A stretch of 21,217 bases of DNA from positions 1 to 21,217 of IMG/VR virus record IMGVR_UViG_3300046745_000027; one strand, written 5' to 3'. The position numbers and the translations under genes were made by a program. This document shows, in pieces, positions 3,571 through 21,217 of this stretch (positions are counted from its first letter, which is position 1; every line of letters begins with the position of its first letter). The notes under the pieces were generated by a model. The model did not search any database. It was not told the origin of the DNA and saw only the letters and a list, made by a program, of their open reading frames with translations. The DNA comes from a virus.

Positions 3571-6500
3571 TTAAAGTGTACCGAAATCGAGAGTTAAATT
3601 ATTACCAGCAGAACCATCTATAGTTGTTGCTGTCATTAGTCCTGTTACTGTTGCGCCTGTAGATGTAACCTCTACTTTGGTGTTTCCAGAATCTTGTAAT
3701 TTAATATTTCCTGTACCAGATGCGTTGATTATAGAATCTGTTGTGTTGTGAAATATTTGTAAATCCGAGTCTGCGCCAAACTTAACTTTAATATTGTCGT
3801 TGTATCTGTTATCTCCAGTAAAGACACTTCCAGATACTTGTGATAAAGCTCCAGTAGCTGTAACACCACCTTGCCATTGAGAACCATTCCAAATTCTTAG
3901 TTCATTAGCTGAAGAGTTAAAATATAAATCTCCAACAGACAATGCGTTACCACCACCATCGGTTGATGGAGCAGAAGAAGCTATTTGATATTGGTCTGCA
4001 AAGTTGTTTACGTCAGAAACATTTGTAGCAACAGTATTGATGTTCGTTGCATTAGAAACAACAGAATTAATATTTGATGCGTTAGACACCGCACTATTAA
4101 TATTTGATGCGTTTGAAACTGCACTATTAATATTGCTTGAGTTATTAGCTACAGCAGTAATGTTTGTATTATTTCCAGCAACCGCATTTATATTTGTAGC
4201 ATTAGAAACAGCAGCATTAATGTTTGAAGCATTAGAAACAGCAGAATTTATATTGCTAGAGTTTCCAGCAACTGCCGTTACGTTTGAATTATTTGCAGCA
4301 ACTGTGTTTATATTTGTACTGTTATCAGCAGTAGCAATAATTTTAACTACGTTATCCGATACTGTCTTTATTGGATCATCCTTAACAGTGATGGTGTTAC
4401 CCATTCCACTGTGGTTTGTACAGTAGTATATAAAACTTGTTGGCTGTGACTCAGGTACAACAAGTTGGACTTTTGCACCAGCTTGTCCTTGAGTGCCAGT
4501 AACAGTAACACCAGTATTATAAGCACTACCACCACTTGAAAAACGTAAGGGATGAGAACCATTAGAACTATCACTTACATCAAATGTATAAGTCCAACCT
4601 TTATATAAAGTAAGAGCTGGTTTACTTACACCATCTACAAAATATGCACCACTAGAAACAGTAATAGCAAAAGTTATTTCATCTTCTAAAGCATCAGCAA
4701 CAATATCTAATGAACCATTAGAACTTCCTGTAGTTACTGCATCACCTATTAATCCAAGATCTTCGGAATATGTTATTGCTCCAGAAACAATAGCTACGTC
4801 ATCTAATACTGATTGGGCTGGTGTAATAATTGCCCATGCACTACCATTCCAAACTCTTAAGTTTCCGTTACTATTATCAAACCATAAATCACCACTTACT
4901 AATGAATTACCATCTACTCTTTGTGTAGGAGCACTTCCACTAATTTGGTATAAATCAGCAAAGTTATTAATATCAGATACATTTGCCCCGGCTGCAACAA
5001 TATTAGTAATGTTGGTTGCAACTGTTGTTACTTCAGTAGCTTTAGGAACTAACCTGTGAAAAGTATATTGATTAAGAGTCGCTGTAGATTCAACTAATAA
5101 TCCAAATCCACTTGGCAAATCTAAAGGCACACCAGTAATAGTTACTGTGCTATTTCCAACTGTTCCGTTAGCAATAGTTACAGTAGTTCCGGTTCTTGTA
5201 TATCCTTGTGATAAAGCACCAATACTTAGTATGGCTGCTTGACCAGTAGTACCTTGTGGGTTCGTATTTGGAAAAAGTAACTCAGTAGCAATAGTAGTAA
5301 AACCACCAACGTCATCAATAAGATCAATAATTCTCGCATTGATTGCAGCAGTTGTAGCTACAAATGCATCTGAGTTAGACCATGTAGCACCACTAGCTAT
5401 AGTTTCACTAGAATCTTGCCTTAAAAACTTAGCTTCAGCCTCAGTTTCTGTGTAGTATCTACCATCTAATGCTCCACCTGTAAGCTCAGTTTCTGTAAAA
5501 TATCTGTTGTCTAATTGACCAGCATCTAGTTCAGTCTCCGTGTAGTATCTACCGTCAGCGGCTCCACCAGTTATTTCAGATTCTGTAAAATATAAACTAT
5601 TTAGTTGACCACCGTTAAGCTCTGCTTCTGTGTAATATCTACTATCAATTGCACCGCCAGAGGTAAGTTCAGTTTCGGTAAAATATCTGTTATCTAACTG
5701 ACCAGCATCTAGCTCAGTTTCTGTATAGTATCTGCCATCAGCAGCACCTCCAGTTATTTCAGTTTCAGTAAAATATCTGTTATCTAATGTACCTGTTGCT
5801 ATTTCAGAATCAGTAACAGCATTAGCTTGTATATGTTCAGCTCCTACCGCATCATCAGCTAGTTTTGTACTATCTATAATATCAGCTTCTAGATGTACTC
5901 TGTCTATAGATCCATCTACATATTGGTCACTATCTACTGAGTTAGCTGACATATGAGAAAGATCAACTGACCCTGATGTAATGTGTTCTGAATCAACAGC
6001 ATTATCGGCAAGTTTTGTACCGTCAATAATGTCTGCTTCTAAATGAACTCTATCAATACTTCCATCTACATATTGGTCACTGTCAACTGAGTTAGCTGAC
6101 ATGTGAATTAAATCTATACTTCCGTCTACATATTGATCACTGTCTACTGAGTTAGCAGACATGTGTTCTAAGTCAATCGAACCTGATACATAATGCTCAG
6201 AATTAATTTGGTCATCACCTATTTTAGCACCTGTAACAGAATCTGCTCCAAGAGCTGTAGTGTCTACGGAACCGGCAGCATAGTGTTCTGTATCTAATGA
6301 ATCTGCTGCTATATGTTCAGAATCAACACTATCGTCAGCTATCTTTGTACCATCAATAGCATCATTAGCTATCTTAGGTCTTGTTACATTAAGATCTTTT
6401 ATCTTAACAGTTGTAACAGCATTGTCTCTTACGTCAGCAGTTCTAATTTTTTGTTGCTGTTCTTGGTTAGCATATAAACTTTGATCTACATTATTATTTA

Positions 6501-6786: not shown

Positions 6787-9700
6787 TTACAAACGATTTG
6801 CTAAATTTTGAAGTCTACGAATTTCGTCGACATCTCCAAGTTGGGTGGCGTTTTTTATTTTATCATTATAGAATTTTTTCTTATCAACGTTACTGCGATC
6901 TGAAATTCGACCTATTGCAAATTCTTGTGCATCTGATAATGCTTGACGTAATCGTTGATGTACAATTAAAAATTCTTTTCTATTTAATTCTGCACCAGTT
7001 TTAGAAGCTTCTTTATATGCAGCTCTAAATTTTTTACCATCCGCAGAGTTCATAATTTTATTAATAGCTTTTTTAAAGATTTGATCTTCACCCATTAATC
7101 TAGTAACTTCTGATCTCTGTGGTCCACTTAATTTTACACCATTACCGTCAGTATTTAACTGTGGTCTACCGTCAAATTCTGCATCTATAAGAAACTGTTT
7201 TTCGGGAGACACATCATCTCTTACTTTAAATACAGGTGCATAAGCATTCCATGCTCTTGTAAAAAAACTATCTGGTTCTCTAACTTTACCACCATCAACC
7301 CAATCGTATGCAGCAGGAAGATTTCCTTTCATACCGGGGTTTCTGTTAGCTATAAGTTGTGTTACTTCGTTTTCTACTTCTTTAATTCCGGGACTCATTA
7401 ATCTAGATAGTTCATTTCTAAGTCCACTACCGGGTACAAGTCCACTACCAAAACTTGCAGCCCAACGAGCTGTTGCACTTGGGTTGCCTTGTAGTACGTC
7501 ATACAATGGCTCTATACCAGCTAAAAATGTTTTGTTTGTTAGGTTAGCACCTATCACATACATCATCTTTTGCATACCGATGTCCATAGTGTTAGGATCT
7601 AAAGTACCATCAGATCCCGGTACGTCAAAGTTATCCATGATATCAGCAGTAACTGCAATCCAATCACTGATAGCTCCTAAGCCTTCATAGCTATACCATT
7701 TACCATCCCAACCTTTGTAACTTCTAGGTTGCCAACCAAGTTGGTTTCTAGTACGTTGTCTAGTTTTATCGTAAATACCATTGCCATGTAATCTGTCAGA
7801 AGTAAACATTAAGGCTGCACCTGACATAGCAAATGCACCAATAGCTTTTCTACCTTTTAATTCTGCACGTATTGTTTCATACGCCATTTCTAACTTGTCG
7901 TCAGCTAGACCAGTAAGACCTCTTTGTTCTAATAAATTTCTAACATTAGTTATTGATTGATTAGAAAATGGTTCTGCATATTCATTTAATTGTTTGACAA
8001 ACAAACCCATTGGGTTATGTGAGCCAGTAAATTTAATCATGTTTGTTGCAGTACGCGGAAACATGAAAAATGGTCTAAGTAAAGGAAAGGTTCTAATAAT
8101 AGAGTTAAAACTATCAACAGCAGGACTGTCTAAGTTCATAGCTATTTCTTTAGATGCAAATTCTACACCTTTGTCAGTAATCATTCCATTATTATCAAAC
8201 ATCTCTTTGTATAGTTTTTTATTTAATCTTTCTATACTTTTAGCTGTCATCTTTTTTTTACCAGCTCTTGACATTAATTCATCATATACCTTACCTCTTG
8301 TTTCTACAGAGCCAATAAATGCTCTAGTAAATCCGTCAAATGCTGTCATAGAGTTAGCACTATAACGTAACCATGGATGGTTAGCTATATCATTCATAGA
8401 TTCTATTCTATCAACAATACCTGAAGGACCAAAGTTACCTGATTTTTCTTGTGCTTCTGCAAATGCTCTAAGAGCTTTTATTTCACCTTCGTTTTTAATA
8501 GCAATATCTTCTCTCATTACATAACCTACAGAGTTAGGATCTGTCCATGCTTTACGAAACACAAGTCTCATGTGATCGAAAGATTTTTGCATGGTATCAC
8601 CTACACCACCAAAGTACATGTAACTAGCTCTTCTTAATACATCCATATCTCCAGTCATTAATGCACCACCCATTGTAGAAATAGGTCTTTCTATCATTAA
8701 AGCTAAGTTAGACGCAGCAGCTTTTAGTGGTGTACCAATAGCTGAAAGAGTAGAGTTGTATATACTACCCCACACACCTTGCATAAATGCTGATTCATAT
8801 TCTGGCTTTCCATCAAAAAACATTTTTTTAACTATGCCAGTTTTATTTCTAAAATATGTATTTAATTCGGATATGTTATTTACTTTACCGTCAGTAAACT
8901 CATAAGCTAACATTAATGGTTTTAACATTTCTGGTCGCTCAGCATTTATTTGACGTATAGTGTCAATAGTATCAGCAGATTCTTTTGTTATATTTTTTAA
9001 ATTAGCTAATGTTTCTTCAGTGTTTTCTTTTATAAAAGACATGGCATTTTCCATAACCTTTTTCTTACCACCATGATTTGAGAAATCCATCTTTTTCATG
9101 CGGTTCCAAAGGTTAACCATATTAAGTGCCCTACCTCTTGCGTAAGATGTTTGACCTTTAATATTCATTAAATATTGTAAACGATCTAAAACTTGTTCTT
9201 GTGCTTGTTGTACAGCAGCAGTACCATTCATTAATCTAGCACCCTCTGCCATATCCTTTACTTGGTCAGCCATAGACTTACCTACATAAGCTTGAGCACG
9301 AGCTAGGTCCATATTCATGTAGTCATCAAAATACTTTTTAATAGCATTAAATACACCAACATAACCTTCAGAGTTTAACACTCTAGTACCTGTATCTATA
9401 TCTACACCAGAAAAATTATCTATAACACGTTTCATTTCATCGACATCTAAATCATATAAAGATGCTGCTAGGTCTTCACCATTTTTAACAACTTCCGCAT
9501 GTGTAATTTTTTTACCACTAGGTGATTGCCAATCTATATCTAATTTTAAATCTTTAGATAATTCTTTCATAGTCCCTAATCCAGCATCATCTAGATTAAG
9601 ACCATCTTTTAATGCAGAATCAGAAAATACACTACCTACACTACCATGTACACTATCAATATTTTTATTAATACGTACAACGTCAACTGATGCAGATACA

Positions 9701-17988: not shown

Positions 17989-19134
17989 TTAGAATGCAGC
18001 GTTACCTGAAGATCCAACAGCAGCACCGGCAATAAGCTCGACACATGCAGCAGGGTTAAGGTAGTCAGCACCCATAGCCATGCGACCTAAGATCACATCG
18101 CCTTGGTAAACAACTGAAACGTCGCCTGAAGTTACTTGAACCTGTGGTCCAATAGCTTCTACAACACCAGCTCCTTCCTTCTGGAAGATCAAACCACATG
18201 AGTTAGCAAATTCTGTTTCTTCACCGTACTCGTTGTTGATTCCAGTTACGTCAGCAGCAGCGTCTTCGACAGCTTCGCCAACAAATGAACCTACGTTTGT
18301 AGGAGATGTGATTCCGGGGTTTGTTGCACCAGCAGAACCATACTTAGTACCATACTGACTGAAGAATGGGATGTTCATTGACTTGAAGATCTTGATGCCT
18401 GCAATTTCAATGATACCTTGTCCAGACTGTAAAGCTGTACCTTGTGTATCTCTGTTGATAAGTCCGCTTGAACCTACACCTTGTATTAATTCGTAGTACT
18501 GTCTTGGGTTAAGTACAGCTACTCTTCCGTCTTCACTAACACCTTTCTCATCTAATGCCGCAGCAGCGTCATAGAAAGCGTTAATTAGAGAAGCTGGTAC
18601 ATAAGCATCAGATGCTTGGTTGTTTGTACCTACACGGATTTGTGTTCCACCGGGTTCTACAAAGCCAGACTTTGTGATTGGTGAAGCAGCTCTAGCACCA
18701 CGAGCGATAGATCTAAAGATTAGTCTGTCGTACTTTTGAGCAAGAGCGTATCCAATCTTCTTGGAAATTTCTCCTCTCAATTCGTAGTGAGCAAGTGTCT
18801 CGTCTAATTCGTAAACGAATGCACTTGAGATTAGAAGGTCATCACATGTGATAGTCTTCTCAGCTACTGGAGGTGCTCCATCGGAGTTTCCAAGTATGCT
18901 GTTGCCGGGTGTATGGAACTCGGCTTTAGTGTGTCCAGTATAGATAAACTGCAAAGATTTTCCATTTTTTAGAGTTCTCTTCATAACGAGATCCCTTGCT
19001 ATCGCATTGTGTTGGAAGCCTTTGAACATTTCTCCACTGAACAATTTTAAGTAAAGTGCTCTTGCGTCACCTGTACTATTGGACTGACCGGCGCGAGTTA
19101 AACTCGTGGTCATTCCTGAACTCTGTTGAGCCAT
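17989..19134 (-). CDS. Major capsid protein (T7 gp10-like)
   Basis: A 381 aa protein aligned in order with T7 gp10A (345 aa). It has SNSTGDARALYLKLFSGEMF (T7 GDKLALFLKVFGGEVL), NGKSLQFIYTGHTKAEFHTP (T7 SGKSAQFPVLGRTQAAYLAP), KTITCDDLLISSAFVYELDE (T7 KVITIDGLLTADVLIYDIED) and LAHYELRGEISKKIG (T7 MNHYDVRSEYTSQLG). It forms the HK97-fold icosahedral shell. The gene has a separate, palindrome-rich leader of about 150 nt (possible promoter) and a strong terminator after it, so it is set up as its own high-level unit. Codon use is richer in C/G at third positions than the tail genes, as expected for the most expressed protein. No T7-type frameshift extension (gp10B) is evident at its end. Confidence 0.96.
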   Translation of the reverse strand: MAQQSSGMTTSLTRAGQSNSTGDARALYLKLFSGEMFKGFQHNAIARDLVMKRTLKNGKSLQFIYTGHTKAEFHTPGNSILGNSDGAPPVAEKTITCDDLLISSAFVYELDETLAHYELRGEISKKIGYALAQKYDRLIFRSIARGARAASPITKSGFVEPGGTQIRVGTNNQASDAYVPASLINAFYDAAAALDEKGVSEDGRVAVLNPRQYYELIQGVGSSGLINRDTQGTALQSGQGIIEIAGIKIFKSMNIPFFSQYGTKYGSAGATNPGITSPTNVGSFVGEAVEDAAADVTGINNEYGEETEFANSCGLIFQKEGAGVVEAIGPQVQVTSGDVSVVYQGDVILGRMAMGADYLNPAACVELIAGAAVGSSGNAAF

Positions 19135-19284
19135 TGTTATGTCCTATTTTAAGGGGTATATTGTATCGTTCCTAACGTTAGAATGTTGTCAGTCTTAATT
19201 GGTCTTACGTGAGACTGTCACGTTTGTGGTCTATCCCACCGTATATACGGCTGATGGTATCCTCCTTAGAGGGCAAAAGCCAGA
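19135..19284 (-). promoter_or_regulatory. Capsid gene leader: candidate late promoter and RNA structures
   Basis: This 150 nt stretch has no convincing gene. In transcription order it holds an isolated strong Shine-Dalgarno (AAGGAGG, 19267-19261), a perfect 12 bp palindrome CCGTATATACGG (19250-19239), a 6 bp stem with 5 nt loop ACGTGA-CAGTC-TCACGT (19223-19207), a short direct repeat of AAGAC around CAATT, and a palindrome CTAACGTTAG (19181-19172). T7 has its phi10 promoter at this spot, so a phage RNA polymerase promoter is expected. I cannot recognise its sequence; the Syn5 promoter ATTGGGCACCCGTAA is not present. The capsid start itself has only a weak AGGAC. Confidence 0.45.
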
Positions 19285-19335
19285 TTGAGATAGGGGGACT
19301 TGAACCCCCTAAGATCGCCTAACCGATTACTCTAG
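19285..19335 (-). other. Putative phage attachment site (attP): 3' half of a Leu/Ser-type tRNA
   Basis: Read on the minus strand, this stretch has a possible 3' anticodon-stem strand (CTAGA, 19335-19331), a long variable arm ATCG-GTTAGG-CGAT (type II tRNA), a perfect T arm GGGGG-TTCAAGT-CCCCC (19309-19293), an acceptor 3' strand TATCTCA (19292-19286) and discriminator A. There is no matching TGAGATA strand, D arm or anticodon arm upstream, so it is not a functional tRNA. A 3' tRNA half in a phage is the classic form of an attP core, because insertion there rebuilds the host tRNA. A 42 bp match to host tRNA-Leu is known for the cyanophage P-SSP7. No host sequence was compared here. Confidence 0.72.
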
Positions 19336-19372
19336 TGTAAGCAATGCCACGATATACAAAAGTAACTTTCAT
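19319..19372 (-). CDS. 17 aa DUF4278-like peptide, apparently cut short by the tRNA-like sequence
   Basis: A very short ORF: MKVTFVYRGIAYTRVIG. The YRGxxY core is the signature of DUF4278, small proteins of unknown function found in cyanobacteria and their phages, usually several tens of residues long. A strong Shine-Dalgarno (AGGAG, 8 nt before the ATG) supports translation. The last four sense codons and the stop lie inside the tRNA-like attP core, so the host-derived sequence ends the reading frame. It is either a remnant or a working micro-peptide. Its ATG overlaps the stop of the 19 aa ORF (ATGA). Confidence 0.5.
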   Translation of the reverse strand: MKVTFVYRGIAYTRVIG

Positions 19373-19428
19373 GGTTTTCTCCTATATACCCAAGCCCCGT
19401 TCCATGCTTGAGTCGTCATGCGTCCCAT
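19369..19428 (-). CDS. 19 aa micro-ORF, doubtful
   Basis: Reads MGRMTTQAWNGAWVYRRKP, with its stop overlapping the ATG of the 17 aa DUF4278-like peptide. It lies between that ORF and the 51 aa basic protein. There is no good Shine-Dalgarno and I recognise no family. The aromatic/basic composition and the exact ATGA overlap are the only arguments for it. Confidence 0.2.
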   Translation of the reverse strand: MGRMTTQAWNGAWVYRRKP

Positions 19429-19450
19429 GCGGGATGAACGGACGTGGTTG

Positions 19451-19606
19451 CTATTTTCTCTTCTTTGCAGTTTTAGCTGCTCGCTTGAAGTTCGCGTTTG
19501 TGGGTGCTCCGGGTGATCCGGGCTTTCTCATCTTTTCACCAGAACCAGCAGCGATGCGCTTTTTCTTGGCATGGATGTTAGCATATAAGCCACGCTTACT
19601 TGCCAT
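19451..19606 (-). CDS. Small basic protein (51 aa), common in marine phages, function unknown
   Basis: Encodes MASKRGLYANIHAKKKRIAA followed by GSGEKMRKPGSPGAP and a Lys/Ala-rich tail ending in KKRK. The RGLYANIHAKxKRIxAGSGE, KMRKPGxxGAPT pattern is a recurrent small-protein family in marine phages, without known function to my knowledge. About a third of residues are Lys or Arg, so it may bind nucleic acid or be a virion-associated basic protein; both are guesses. Its ATG overlaps the end of the 22 aa ORF by 11 nt. It is the most recognisable of the micro-ORFs between the D1 and capsid genes. Confidence 0.7.
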   Translation of the reverse strand: MASKRGLYANIHAKKKRIAAGSGEKMRKPGSPGAPTNANFKRAAKTAKKRK

Positions 19607-19664
19607 ATTTCTTACCCCCTTTTTTCATGCCACCTTTACAGGAGCCTTTACCTTTGTGTGCCAT
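19596..19664 (-). CDS. 22 aa Lys/Gly-rich micro-protein
   Basis: Encodes MAHKGKGSCKGGMKKGGKKY followed by GK. It has a good Shine-Dalgarno (GAGGA, 7 nt before the ATG), its ATG overlaps the stop of the 50 aa gene as TAATG, and its end overlaps the 51 aa gene. Short KGKGSCKGGMKKGGKK-type proteins recur in marine phages. The Lys/Gly-rich make-up with a single Cys is unlike random AT-rich sequence. Function unknown. Confidence 0.5.
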   Translation of the reverse strand: MAHKGKGSCKGGMKKGGKKYGK

Positions 19665-19816
19665 TACTTTTTCCTCATGTTTTTAGAAATAGCCTTAGCT
19701 ACCTTAGCAGGCATTTTAGGATTCTTAGACATCAGCTTTTTAGCTGTGCCATTACCATTTTTTTTGGCAGGAGGTCTGCCTCTTTTAGAACCGTAGGTTC
19801 CTTTTCCCATTGGCAT
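19664..19816 (-). CDS. Small basic protein (50 aa), function unknown
   Basis: Encodes MPMGKGTYGSKRGRPPAKKN followed by a Lys/Ala/Met-rich stretch (TAKKLMSKNPKMPAKVAKAI) and SKNMRKK. The GTYGSKRGRPPKK start is a familiar pattern of small phage basic proteins, and KRGRPPAKK resembles an AT-hook-like core, so binding to AT-rich DNA is conceivable. It starts 2 nt after the stop of the DUF6321-like gene (reads TAATTATG) and lacks a clear Shine-Dalgarno, consistent with translational coupling. A second ATG at codon 3 is an alternative start. Confidence 0.6.
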   Translation of the reverse strand: MPMGKGTYGSKRGRPPAKKNGNGTAKKLMSKNPKMPAKVAKAISKNMRKK

Positions 19817-19818
19817 AA

Positions 19819-20034
19819 TTAACATTTCCATTTGCGAAGGGCAAGAGCCTTACGAGTAGGCTTGCCGTTTGGTTTTTTCATAGGACCTTTCACGCCCGAC
19901 ATGCGAGCGCAGAAAGATCTTTTACGAGCACCACCTTGAGGTTGTGGTGCTTTAAGATTTGATCCAGTTGCAGCGTTGTATTTTTTTCTACCGGCTGCTG
20001 TCAGACCCCCCGTCCGACTCTTGTGTTTGCCCAT
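19819..20034 (-). CDS. DUF6321-like small basic protein
   Basis: From the ATG at 20034 the product is 71 aa: [20 protein letters not shown], then AATGSNLKAPQPQGGARKRS, FCARMSGVKGPMKKPNGKPT and RKALALRKWKC. The elements [19 protein letters not shown], RKSFCARMSG and GKPTRKALALRKWKC are the conserved blocks of the DUF6321 family found in many phages; function unknown. Two conserved Cys and high basic charge could suit nucleic-acid or virion binding. Upstream in-frame starts exist (ATG at 20067, TTG further up), but the family usually begins just before the KSRTGG block. It overlaps the 73 aa ORF after psbA in another frame. Confidence 0.72.
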   Translation of the reverse strand: MGKHKSRTGGLTAAGRKKYNAATGSNLKAPQPQGGARKRSFCARMSGVKGPMKKPNGKPTRKALALRKWKC

Positions 20035-20209
20035 CTTCAGGCTTACGTTCTTTCTCTTGGTTGTCATTGCTATTACAAAATTCAAATCTTGTTACGCTTG
20101 CACGCATTTTATCAGATTGTTGTGACATATTGTTCCAGTGTCTAGACACTCCAGAGATAATAAAACAGTTAGTAATTATTGTTAATATTAAACAAAGCTT
20201 ATTAAGCAA
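19988..20209 (-). CDS. Small ORF after psbA with hydrophobic N-terminus, uncertain
   Basis: A 73 aa ORF using a TTG start that overlaps the psbA stop by 8 nt. Residues 1-21 are hydrophobic ([20 protein letters not shown]), the rest hydrophilic and acidic/polar, ending GGSDSSR. An ATG at 20128 would give a 46 aa soluble form ([20 protein letters not shown] and onward) without the membrane segment. Its tail overlaps the DUF6321-like gene. No strong Shine-Dalgarno precedes either start, and I recognise no family. The shorter ATG form is as likely as the long one. Confidence 0.35.
20137..20150. repeat. Perfect 14 bp palindrome downstream of psbA
   Basis: AGTGTCTAGACACT is an exact inverted repeat, 52 nt after the psbA stop. 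On the minus strand it could form a short hairpin but there is no T-run, so it is not an intrinsic terminator. It may be an RNA-processing or 3'-end stabilising hairpin for psbA mRNA, or a protein-binding site. It lies inside the N-terminal part of the 73 aa ORF. Confidence 0.5.
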
Positions 20210-21217
20210 TTTCTGGAGCGGTGAGTGCTATTTGTGTTGACTCAGCGTTAGCTAAATCAAGTGGGAAGTTGTGTGCATTTCTTTCATGCATTACTTCCAT
20301 ACCTAAAGACTGTCTGTTTAGAACATCAGCCCATGTAGGAATTACATTTCCACTAGCATCAACTACTGACTGGTTAAAGTTAAAACCATTTAAGTTAAAT
20401 GCCATTGTGCAGATTCCCATGGATGTTAGCCATATGCCAATAACCGGGAAAGCACCAAGAAAGAAATGTAAAGAACGAGAATTATTGAAAGACGCATATT
20501 GAAATATTAGTCTACCGAAGTAGCCATGAGCTGCAACGATGTTATAAGTCTCATCTTCCTGACCAAATTTATAGCCATAATTCTGTGACTCCTGTTCAGT
20601 TGTCTCCTTAATAATAGAGGACGTAACCAAACTTCCGTGCATAGCAGCGAAAAGAGATCCACCGAATACCCCAGCAACACCGAGCATGTGGAACGGATGC
20701 ATAAGGATATTGTGTTCTGCTTGGAATACGAACATGAAGTTAAAAGTACCAGAAATACCAAGAGGCATACCATCACTAAAACTCCCTTGTCCGAAAGGGT
20801 ACACGAGAAAAACCGCTAGAGCTGCTGAGACTGGAGCCATGTAAGCTACAAAAATCCAAGGTCTCATACCTAGTCGATAAGATAGTTCCCATTGTCTTCC
20901 TGCGTATGCAGCCACTCCAATGAGAAAGTGGAATATAACTAACTGATAAGGTCCGCCATTGTATAACCACTCGTCCAGTGTAGCAGCCTCCCAGATAGGA
21001 TAGAAATGTAGTCCGATTGCGTTAGAGCTAGGGACGACAGCTCCTGATATTATATTGTTCCCGTATAATAAGGAGCCGGAAACTGGCTCACGTATGCCGT
21101 CGATGTCCACAGGTGGAGCAGCGATGAAGGCGAGAGTAAAACATATTGCAGCAGCTAGTAAGCAAGGTATCATTAATACTCCGAACCATCCTACGTATAG
21201 GCGATTGTTTGTACTTG
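20202..21217 (-). CDS. psbA: Photosystem II D1 protein, phage-encoded (partial, N-terminus outside window)
   Basis: Codons 23 to 359 of D1 are present; the first 22 codons lie beyond the right edge. D1 binds the photosystem II cofactors and turns over rapidly in light; phage copies keep host photosynthesis going during infection. Counting from the conserved M37 (21173), the key residues are all in place: YZ Y161 (YPFGQG), D170 (SFSDG), E189/H190 ([12 protein letters not shown]), H198, H215, S264, H272, H332/E333 (MHERNAHNF), D342 and the A344 processing site, with a 15-residue C-terminal extension. Position 130 is Gln (GRQWELSY), as in the low-light D1 form, rather than Glu. Intact frame and full ligand set indicate a functional protein. 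It is upstream of the capsid gene and so probably expressed late. Confidence 0.97.

Follow-up and report, generated by a model that had tools for sequence, protein, structure and literature searches.

tRNA punctuation, in mitochondria and in bacterial tRNA-mRNA operons, inserts tRNAs between genes, where each exactly abuts the message that follows. The cyanophage elements described here are alike in that tRNA-like structures stand between genes and form exact junctions with the next message, and true tRNAs occupy some of the slots; they differ in that most are not tRNAs (D and anticodon arms are absent), the genome is that of a DNA phage, a hairpin leader follows, and the cleavage is a predicted one. 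T7 mRNAs are processed by RNase III at intergenic sites and carry 5′ stem-loop leaders. The cyanophages share the T7-like genome plan and may combine intergenic cut sites (predicted here) and 5′ hairpins in an analogous way, but their signal resembles a tRNA and not an RNase III duplex, and a generic T-arm scan of both strands of the T7 genome found none of these T arms. RNase P also cuts tRNA-like minihelices of phage origin: the C4 RNA of P1/P7, M3 RNA, and T4 gene 32 mRNA (PMC11143913). Those are single cases, whereas the cyanophage set is repeated and covarying, each member having a downstream hairpin. The mascRNA/menRNA family (RF01684), whose RNAs are produced by RNase P and RNase Z cleavage, resembles the element studied here in its acceptor-like stem, single reduced arm, and T arm, but its context is that of eukaryotic long noncoding RNAs and we do not imply homology; alignment of the element to the whole RF01684 model reached 15.9 bits (E = 1.5), below the 42.5-bit threshold, and all other Rfam matches were likewise sub-threshold.

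A tRNA-derived look is shared, too, with the attachment sites of T7-like cyanophages, and an earlier note on this DNA had proposed a likely attP core of a phage that inserts into a tRNA-Leu or tRNA-Ser gene of its host. In this group, the published attP sites lie directly downstream of int and consist of 39 bp from the first half of tRNA-Leu; P-SSP7 and S-TIP37 integrate via ~40-bp copies of a tRNA-Leu first half (PMC8776855). The attP sites of these two phages are 39- to 42-bp exact copies of host sequence next to int, whereas the element studied here sits before the capsid gene and matches no host tRNA beyond its T arm. Its longest exact match in 400 Cyanobiaceae genomes was 19 nt, far from the 39 to 44 bp that an attP shares, identically or nearly so, with a tRNA gene of its host and from the match of at least 40 nt to a cyanobacterial tRNA 3′ end that the earlier note had proposed to look for. 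The 42-bp tRNA-Leu match that the note cited for P-SSP7 served as a positive control and was reproduced in full (P-SSP7 positions 5857 to 5898; 42/42 nt in a Prochlorococcus genome). P-SSP7 and S-TIP37 each carry both int/attP and a tRNA-like element, the two lying ~15 kb apart: int at 4896 to 5768 and the capsid-slot element at 20632 to 20679 in P-SSP7, and int at 4005 to 4853 and the element at 20516 to 20561 in S-TIP37. No credible host match was found for the P-SSP7 capsid-slot element. The pattern is also that of a tRNA 3′ half, standing far from int in these two relatives. For the host genomes sampled, we rejected the attP reading.

The window analyzed here, a 21,217-base IMG/VR virus record, is a fragment of a phage genome and shows one element only. 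It covers the late region of a T7-like cyanophage on the minus strand, in the order psbA, small ORFs, capsid gene, and tail and internal virion genes (Table 1). As the earlier note had stated, the site lies between psbA and the capsid gene, and no integrase accompanies it: Pfam PF00589 has no match in the 21-kb record. Between psbA and the riboswitch (positions 19451 to 20085, minus strand) lies a string of micro-ORFs, apparently basic and without assigned function. The Glutamine-II riboswitch exceeds its 33-bit threshold, is followed by a short peptide ORF, and is also present in ten related phage loci; the peptide is kept in P-SSP7, P-SSP2, P-SSP3, and P-GSP1. The stop codon of the peptide lies within the tRNA-like element, in its middle-hairpin loop.

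TABLE 1 Features of the 21,217-base window around the tRNA-like element
Feature	Position	Strand	Basis or remark
psbA	20202..21173	−	ORF list; 89% identity to Prochlorococcus PsbA; upstream gene, same direction
Glutamine-II (Downstream-peptide) riboswitch RF01704	19389..19444	−	cmscan match 19389-19443, 54.3 bits, E 7.6e-11
17-aa riboswitch-associated peptide MKVTFVYRGIAYTRVIG and stop (YRG peptide ORF)	19319..19372	−	Read from sequence
tRNA-like domain: outer (acceptor-like) stem GAG/CTC, middle hairpin, T arm	19286..19332	−	Fold, covariance model, covariation in relatives
Middle hairpin ATCG-GTTAGG-CGAT	19314..19327	−	Fold and compensatory changes
T arm GGGGG-TTCAAGT-CCCCC, 5-bp stem	19293..19309	−	Perfect; extended 7-bp stem (TA/TA counted) 19291-19311
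Acceptor-like strand TATCTCA	19286-19292	−	Followed by discriminator-like A at 19285
Predicted 3′ processing junction, discriminator A 19285/next element	19284..19285	−	Inferred from constant 13- to 14-nt spacing
Motif B, second conserved leader element, hairpin-containing capsid-message leader	19223..19283	−	One mismatch versus GACGGTGGGATAGACCACA
Major capsid protein gene	17989..19134	−	PHROGs major head protein, E 1.9e-85; ATG at 19134

The window feature is a real and conserved RNA whose fold mimics the upper half of a tRNA, and attP is the wrong label for it. Its minimum free energy fold (−15.5 kcal/mol) consists of exactly the outer stem, the middle hairpin, and the T arm. The T arm, acceptor-like strand, and discriminator A that the earlier note had read on the minus strand are all there (19285 to 19309). 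What it had called a variable arm is indeed a helix, but one formed by the small middle hairpin, with the peptide stop codon in its loop. ARAGORN found no complete tRNA with D and anticodon arms in the window, but the note's statement that the 5′ half is missing is only partly right: a 5′ acceptor-like strand exists and pairs as GAG/CTC. The T arm has the T54, C56, A58, and 5-bp stem of a minihelix (TTCAAGT loop, GGGGG/CCCCC stem), and T arms of this pattern occur once on the sense strand of the window and nowhere on the antisense strand, with ~0 expected. The middle hairpin is supported by compensatory changes in P-SSP7 and P-GSP1 (ATCGG/CCGAT versus ATCAA/TTGAT). A covariance model built from relatives, with the window left out, gives this element a score of 24.8 bits (E = 0.0035). 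The window's own copy may be weak, because its outer stem has only 3 bp, with mismatches, compared with 5 to 7 bp in relatives. Cyanobacterial tRNA genes usually lack an encoded CCA, and none is encoded 3′ of the element. A search of the GTDB collection with an exact 25-mer gave no match.

In relatives, the element occupies a defined slot directly 5′ of motif B, which we collected in 314 copies from IMG/VR scans and the isolates P-GSP1, P-SSP2, P-SSP3, and P-SSP7; all four isolates have homologous slots. Motif B occurs once per genome, its outer stem covaries, and a capsid gene starts <400 nt downstream in 285 of the 290 loci with enough sequence. Window positions 19239 to 19250, within motif B, form a palindrome, CCGTATATACGG in the window and CCGTCTAGACGG or CCGTCATGACGG in relatives. 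In nearly every relative, the self-complementarity of this 10- to 14-bp palindrome is perfect and extends through its centre (CTAG, CATG, ATAT, or TCGA), which is beyond what an RNA loop alone demands.

Four alternative occupants fill the slot. Form A is a complete tRNA, identified by ARAGORN as tRNA-Gly(UCC) in 17 IMG/VR loci and tRNA-Leu(AAG) in 2, and form B is a D-armless tRNA-Gly (9 loci); these totals are not frequencies, because several scans selected loci by their T-loop pattern. Form C, the mini form found in the window, has an acceptor-like stem, a 7- to 20-nt insert that is often a hairpin, and a T arm. Form D lacks a T loop; it is a hairpin whose CACCTCAGAGTCGGA core hardly varies and which has 7 to 10 further pairs. 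In the IMG/VR scan that was not selected by slot (n = 103), forms D, C, B, and A numbered 53, 45, 4, and 1. Mini forms and true tRNA-Gly genes are thus interchangeable at this position: in isolate NATL1A-7 the slot holds an annotated tRNA-Gly(UCC) gene, ~125 nt before the capsid ATG. The riboswitch precedes 66 of 103 mini slots but none of the slots with full or D-armless tRNAs, so the element is independent of it.

Other observations concern the variants of this slot. Form D stands directly 5′ of motif B in nine loci (L007, L008, L011, L549, L550, and L552 to L555) as well as the 53 IMG/VR loci; its stem covaries, and the distance from the CACCTCAGAGTCGGA core to motif B is 11 to 12 nt. Form D is possibly another 12-bp minihelix mimic. 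Unless it is, its prevalence means that likeness to tRNA is not essential in the capsid slot. The anticodon arm of the two tRNA-Leu(AAG) genes (L133 and L134) looks degenerate, and these are probably tRNA mimics retained for their acceptor and T arms only. Comparison of L016 and L126 with L051, L070, L079, and L087 reveals the same module behind an upstream ORF that has been swapped up to the acceptor strand, which suggests modular exchange at the border of the tRNA-like element.

When mini forms with unequal inserts were aligned by MAFFT, the 5′ acceptor strand was misplaced. We therefore counted covariation in two other ways: slots were anchored explicitly and compared with permutations, and a gapless set of nine sequences of equal length was analyzed. 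In the mini forms, the 5′ strand changes in step with the seven bases 3′ of the T stem, giving acceptor pairs such as AGGTAAG/CTTACCT, AAGTGA/TCACTT, GCTAAG/CTTAGC, GGCAAG/CTTGCC, ACTGGT/ACCAGT, and many more. At least five contiguous acceptor pairs form in 115 of 135 distinct slots, compared with at most 71 in 300 permutations; with one slot per acceptor type, the count is 43 of 52 compared with at most 26. In the gapless set, 93.5% of cells pair, both sides change in 8 of 12 pairs, and the covariation score, which was reached by none of 500 shuffles, is lost when the partner strand is slid. All 67 mini forms examined have the same bases at T54, C56, and A58 and the same pairs at 52-62 and 53-61, position 55 being G or T. 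In each of the 156 slots, whether it holds a mini form, a D-armless tRNA, or a full tRNA, 13 or 14 nt separate the T loop from the element that follows, and the same spacing holds for 33 of 33 slots in a set that was not selected by it.

The elements are not confined to the capsid slot. In the generic T-arm scan of both strands of eight T7-like cyanophage genomes, all 21 T arms found lay on the transcribed strand; the pelagiphage HTVC019P gave one antisense match, probably by chance. Twenty of the 21 stand just before a gene (in Syn5, 133 nt before the capsid gene), the exception being P-SSP7 41067, which lies within a coding gene and is probably also a chance match. A strong hairpin begins ≤3 nt downstream of the discriminator at 10 of 14 non-capsid sites, compared with 3.4% of random positions (p ~2e-12), and acceptor pairing at the genome-wide sites exceeds that in all 500 permutations. 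The site at 9515-10a position 7370 displays the full arrangement: AGGTAGG[hairpin]ACGGG-TTCAAGT-CCCGT-CCTACCT-A-TT-GACTCTC-AATGA-GAGAGTC-TTATTCAAACAA-ATG. At orthologous sites in 9515-10a, NATL2A-133, and P-SSP10, the T stem and hairpin are kept through compensatory changes and the ORF starts 32 to 34 nt away. The covariance model from the relatives recovered further elements in P-SSP7 at 602 to 649 (E = 1e-5) and 1005 to 1042 (E = 0.13); it found no match in eight host genomes, although that search was run without a positive control and says little. Behind the P-SSP7 (L132) element at 602 to 649, in a region annotated as gene-free, we noticed an unannotated 85-codon ORF (MYYVEDRSSTCVDVIAVCPFSKVAKVRYHNGREYTYSNVSR...) at ~709 to 966.

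T7-like cyanophages place tRNA-like elements just 5′ of genes, and we propose that host tRNA-maturation enzymes probably cut the messages there. In each element, the acceptor-like stem would stack on the T arm to give ~12 bp, and a short hairpin replaces the D and anticodon arms; a hairpin leader follows within ~3 nt in the polycistronic message, and then the gene. RNase Z cleaves after the discriminator. Such a cut, with RNase P and/or other enzymes acting on the 5′ side, would give a downstream mRNA (here that of the capsid) whose hairpin lies 1 to 3 nt from its 5′ end and may shield it from 5′-dependent decay; the upstream psbA/peptide message would be left with a stable tRNA-like 3′ end.

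What is known of the enzymes is compatible with this proposal. Hairpins made of acceptor and T arm are sufficient RNase P substrates; RNase P contacts C56 and the T loop, has been proposed to use a ~12-bp ruler from the T loop, and cuts phage RNAs as well as polycistronic mRNAs (PMC11143913). RNase P and RNase Z are both present in cyanobacteria, as is a 5′ exonuclease, RNase J (PMC10989914), and P-SSP7 causes host RNase E to rise (PMC9692554), so that protected 5′ ends would pay. The strongest hint of a processing function comes from the true tRNA-Gly genes that the slot can hold, since these must be processed. We favor RNase Z, or RNase Z and RNase P together, as the cutting enzyme(s). A point against the proposal is that a 5′ cut by RNase P in the capsid slot would remove the peptide stop codon. 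The earlier note had offered, as a fallback, an RNase P/RNase Z-like processing or stability element in late mRNA; the new evidence favors that suggestion, with cleavage itself as its predicted part.

A tRNA-like structure that is never cut is an unlikely alternative: it might control stability or translation of the capsid leader, form part of the expression platform of the riboswitch, or bind a tRNA-binding protein. Covariation and T-loop conservation alone do not prove cleavage, the riboswitch peptide ends inside the element, and many loci have a hairpin without a T loop instead. An element tied to the riboswitch is, however, at odds with the slots where full or D-armless tRNAs stand without one. 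Cleavage better accounts for a junction distance common to mini forms and real tRNAs and for the recurrent layout of element, 5′ hairpin, and gene, and full tRNAs in the slot would undergo processing anyway.

Decay of former tRNA genes (tRNA-Gly or others) into functionless pseudogenes would explain the graded series from complete tRNA-Gly through D-armless tRNA-Gly to mini forms. We consider it very improbable, since pseudogenes would keep neither acceptor pairing over dozens of coordinated changes nor an invariant T loop and constant spacing, and the elements recur before unrelated early genes. It is similarly hard to believe in an element that acts on DNA or transcription, such as an intrinsic terminator or a promoter region. 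GC-rich hairpins between genes and the self-complementary palindrome of motif B (CCGTCTAGACGG; CCGTATATACGG in the window) are what such a reading has in its favor, but the minus strand has no T run downstream and no terminator-like or strong sigma-70-like site there, motif B occurs singly in each genome, unlike promoters of phage polymerases, and the covariation is of the RNA type. We rejected both specific candidates, motif B as a phage-polymerase promoter and a terminator at the element. Finally, although the T arm resembles that of tRNA-Leu (a 17-nt match within host tRNA-Leu genes) and integration into tRNA-Leu does occur in T7-like cyanophages (PMC8776855), the short host matches, the first-half nature of known sites, and the distance from int leave an attP core with virtually no credibility.

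Returning to cleavage at tRNA-like elements, the position of the peptide stop codon within the capsid-slot element raises the speculative prospect that riboswitch-driven translation could compete with folding of the element. A bolder version of the proposal, which we hold to be decidedly doubtful, is that tRNA-mimic cut sites and 5′ hairpins replace RNase III punctuation in these phages and that the capsid slot is coupled to glutamine sensing: ribosomes on the riboswitch peptide would unfold the tRNA mimic, so that separation of the psbA and capsid messages would depend on nitrogen status.

In the open-licence literature we found no description of these elements or of how cyanophage messages are divided. 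T7-like cyanophages are abundant in the sea, and P-SSP7 serves as a model of how phages take over photosynthesis. T arms in such genomes should not be taken as attP sites. If our proposal is true, the elements would explain how separate, stable mRNAs for the capsid and early genes arise while host RNase E rises, and would provide a simple sequence marker of processing sites across thousands of viral contigs. They would also represent tRNA punctuation in a DNA virus, carried out by elements that are no longer tRNAs.
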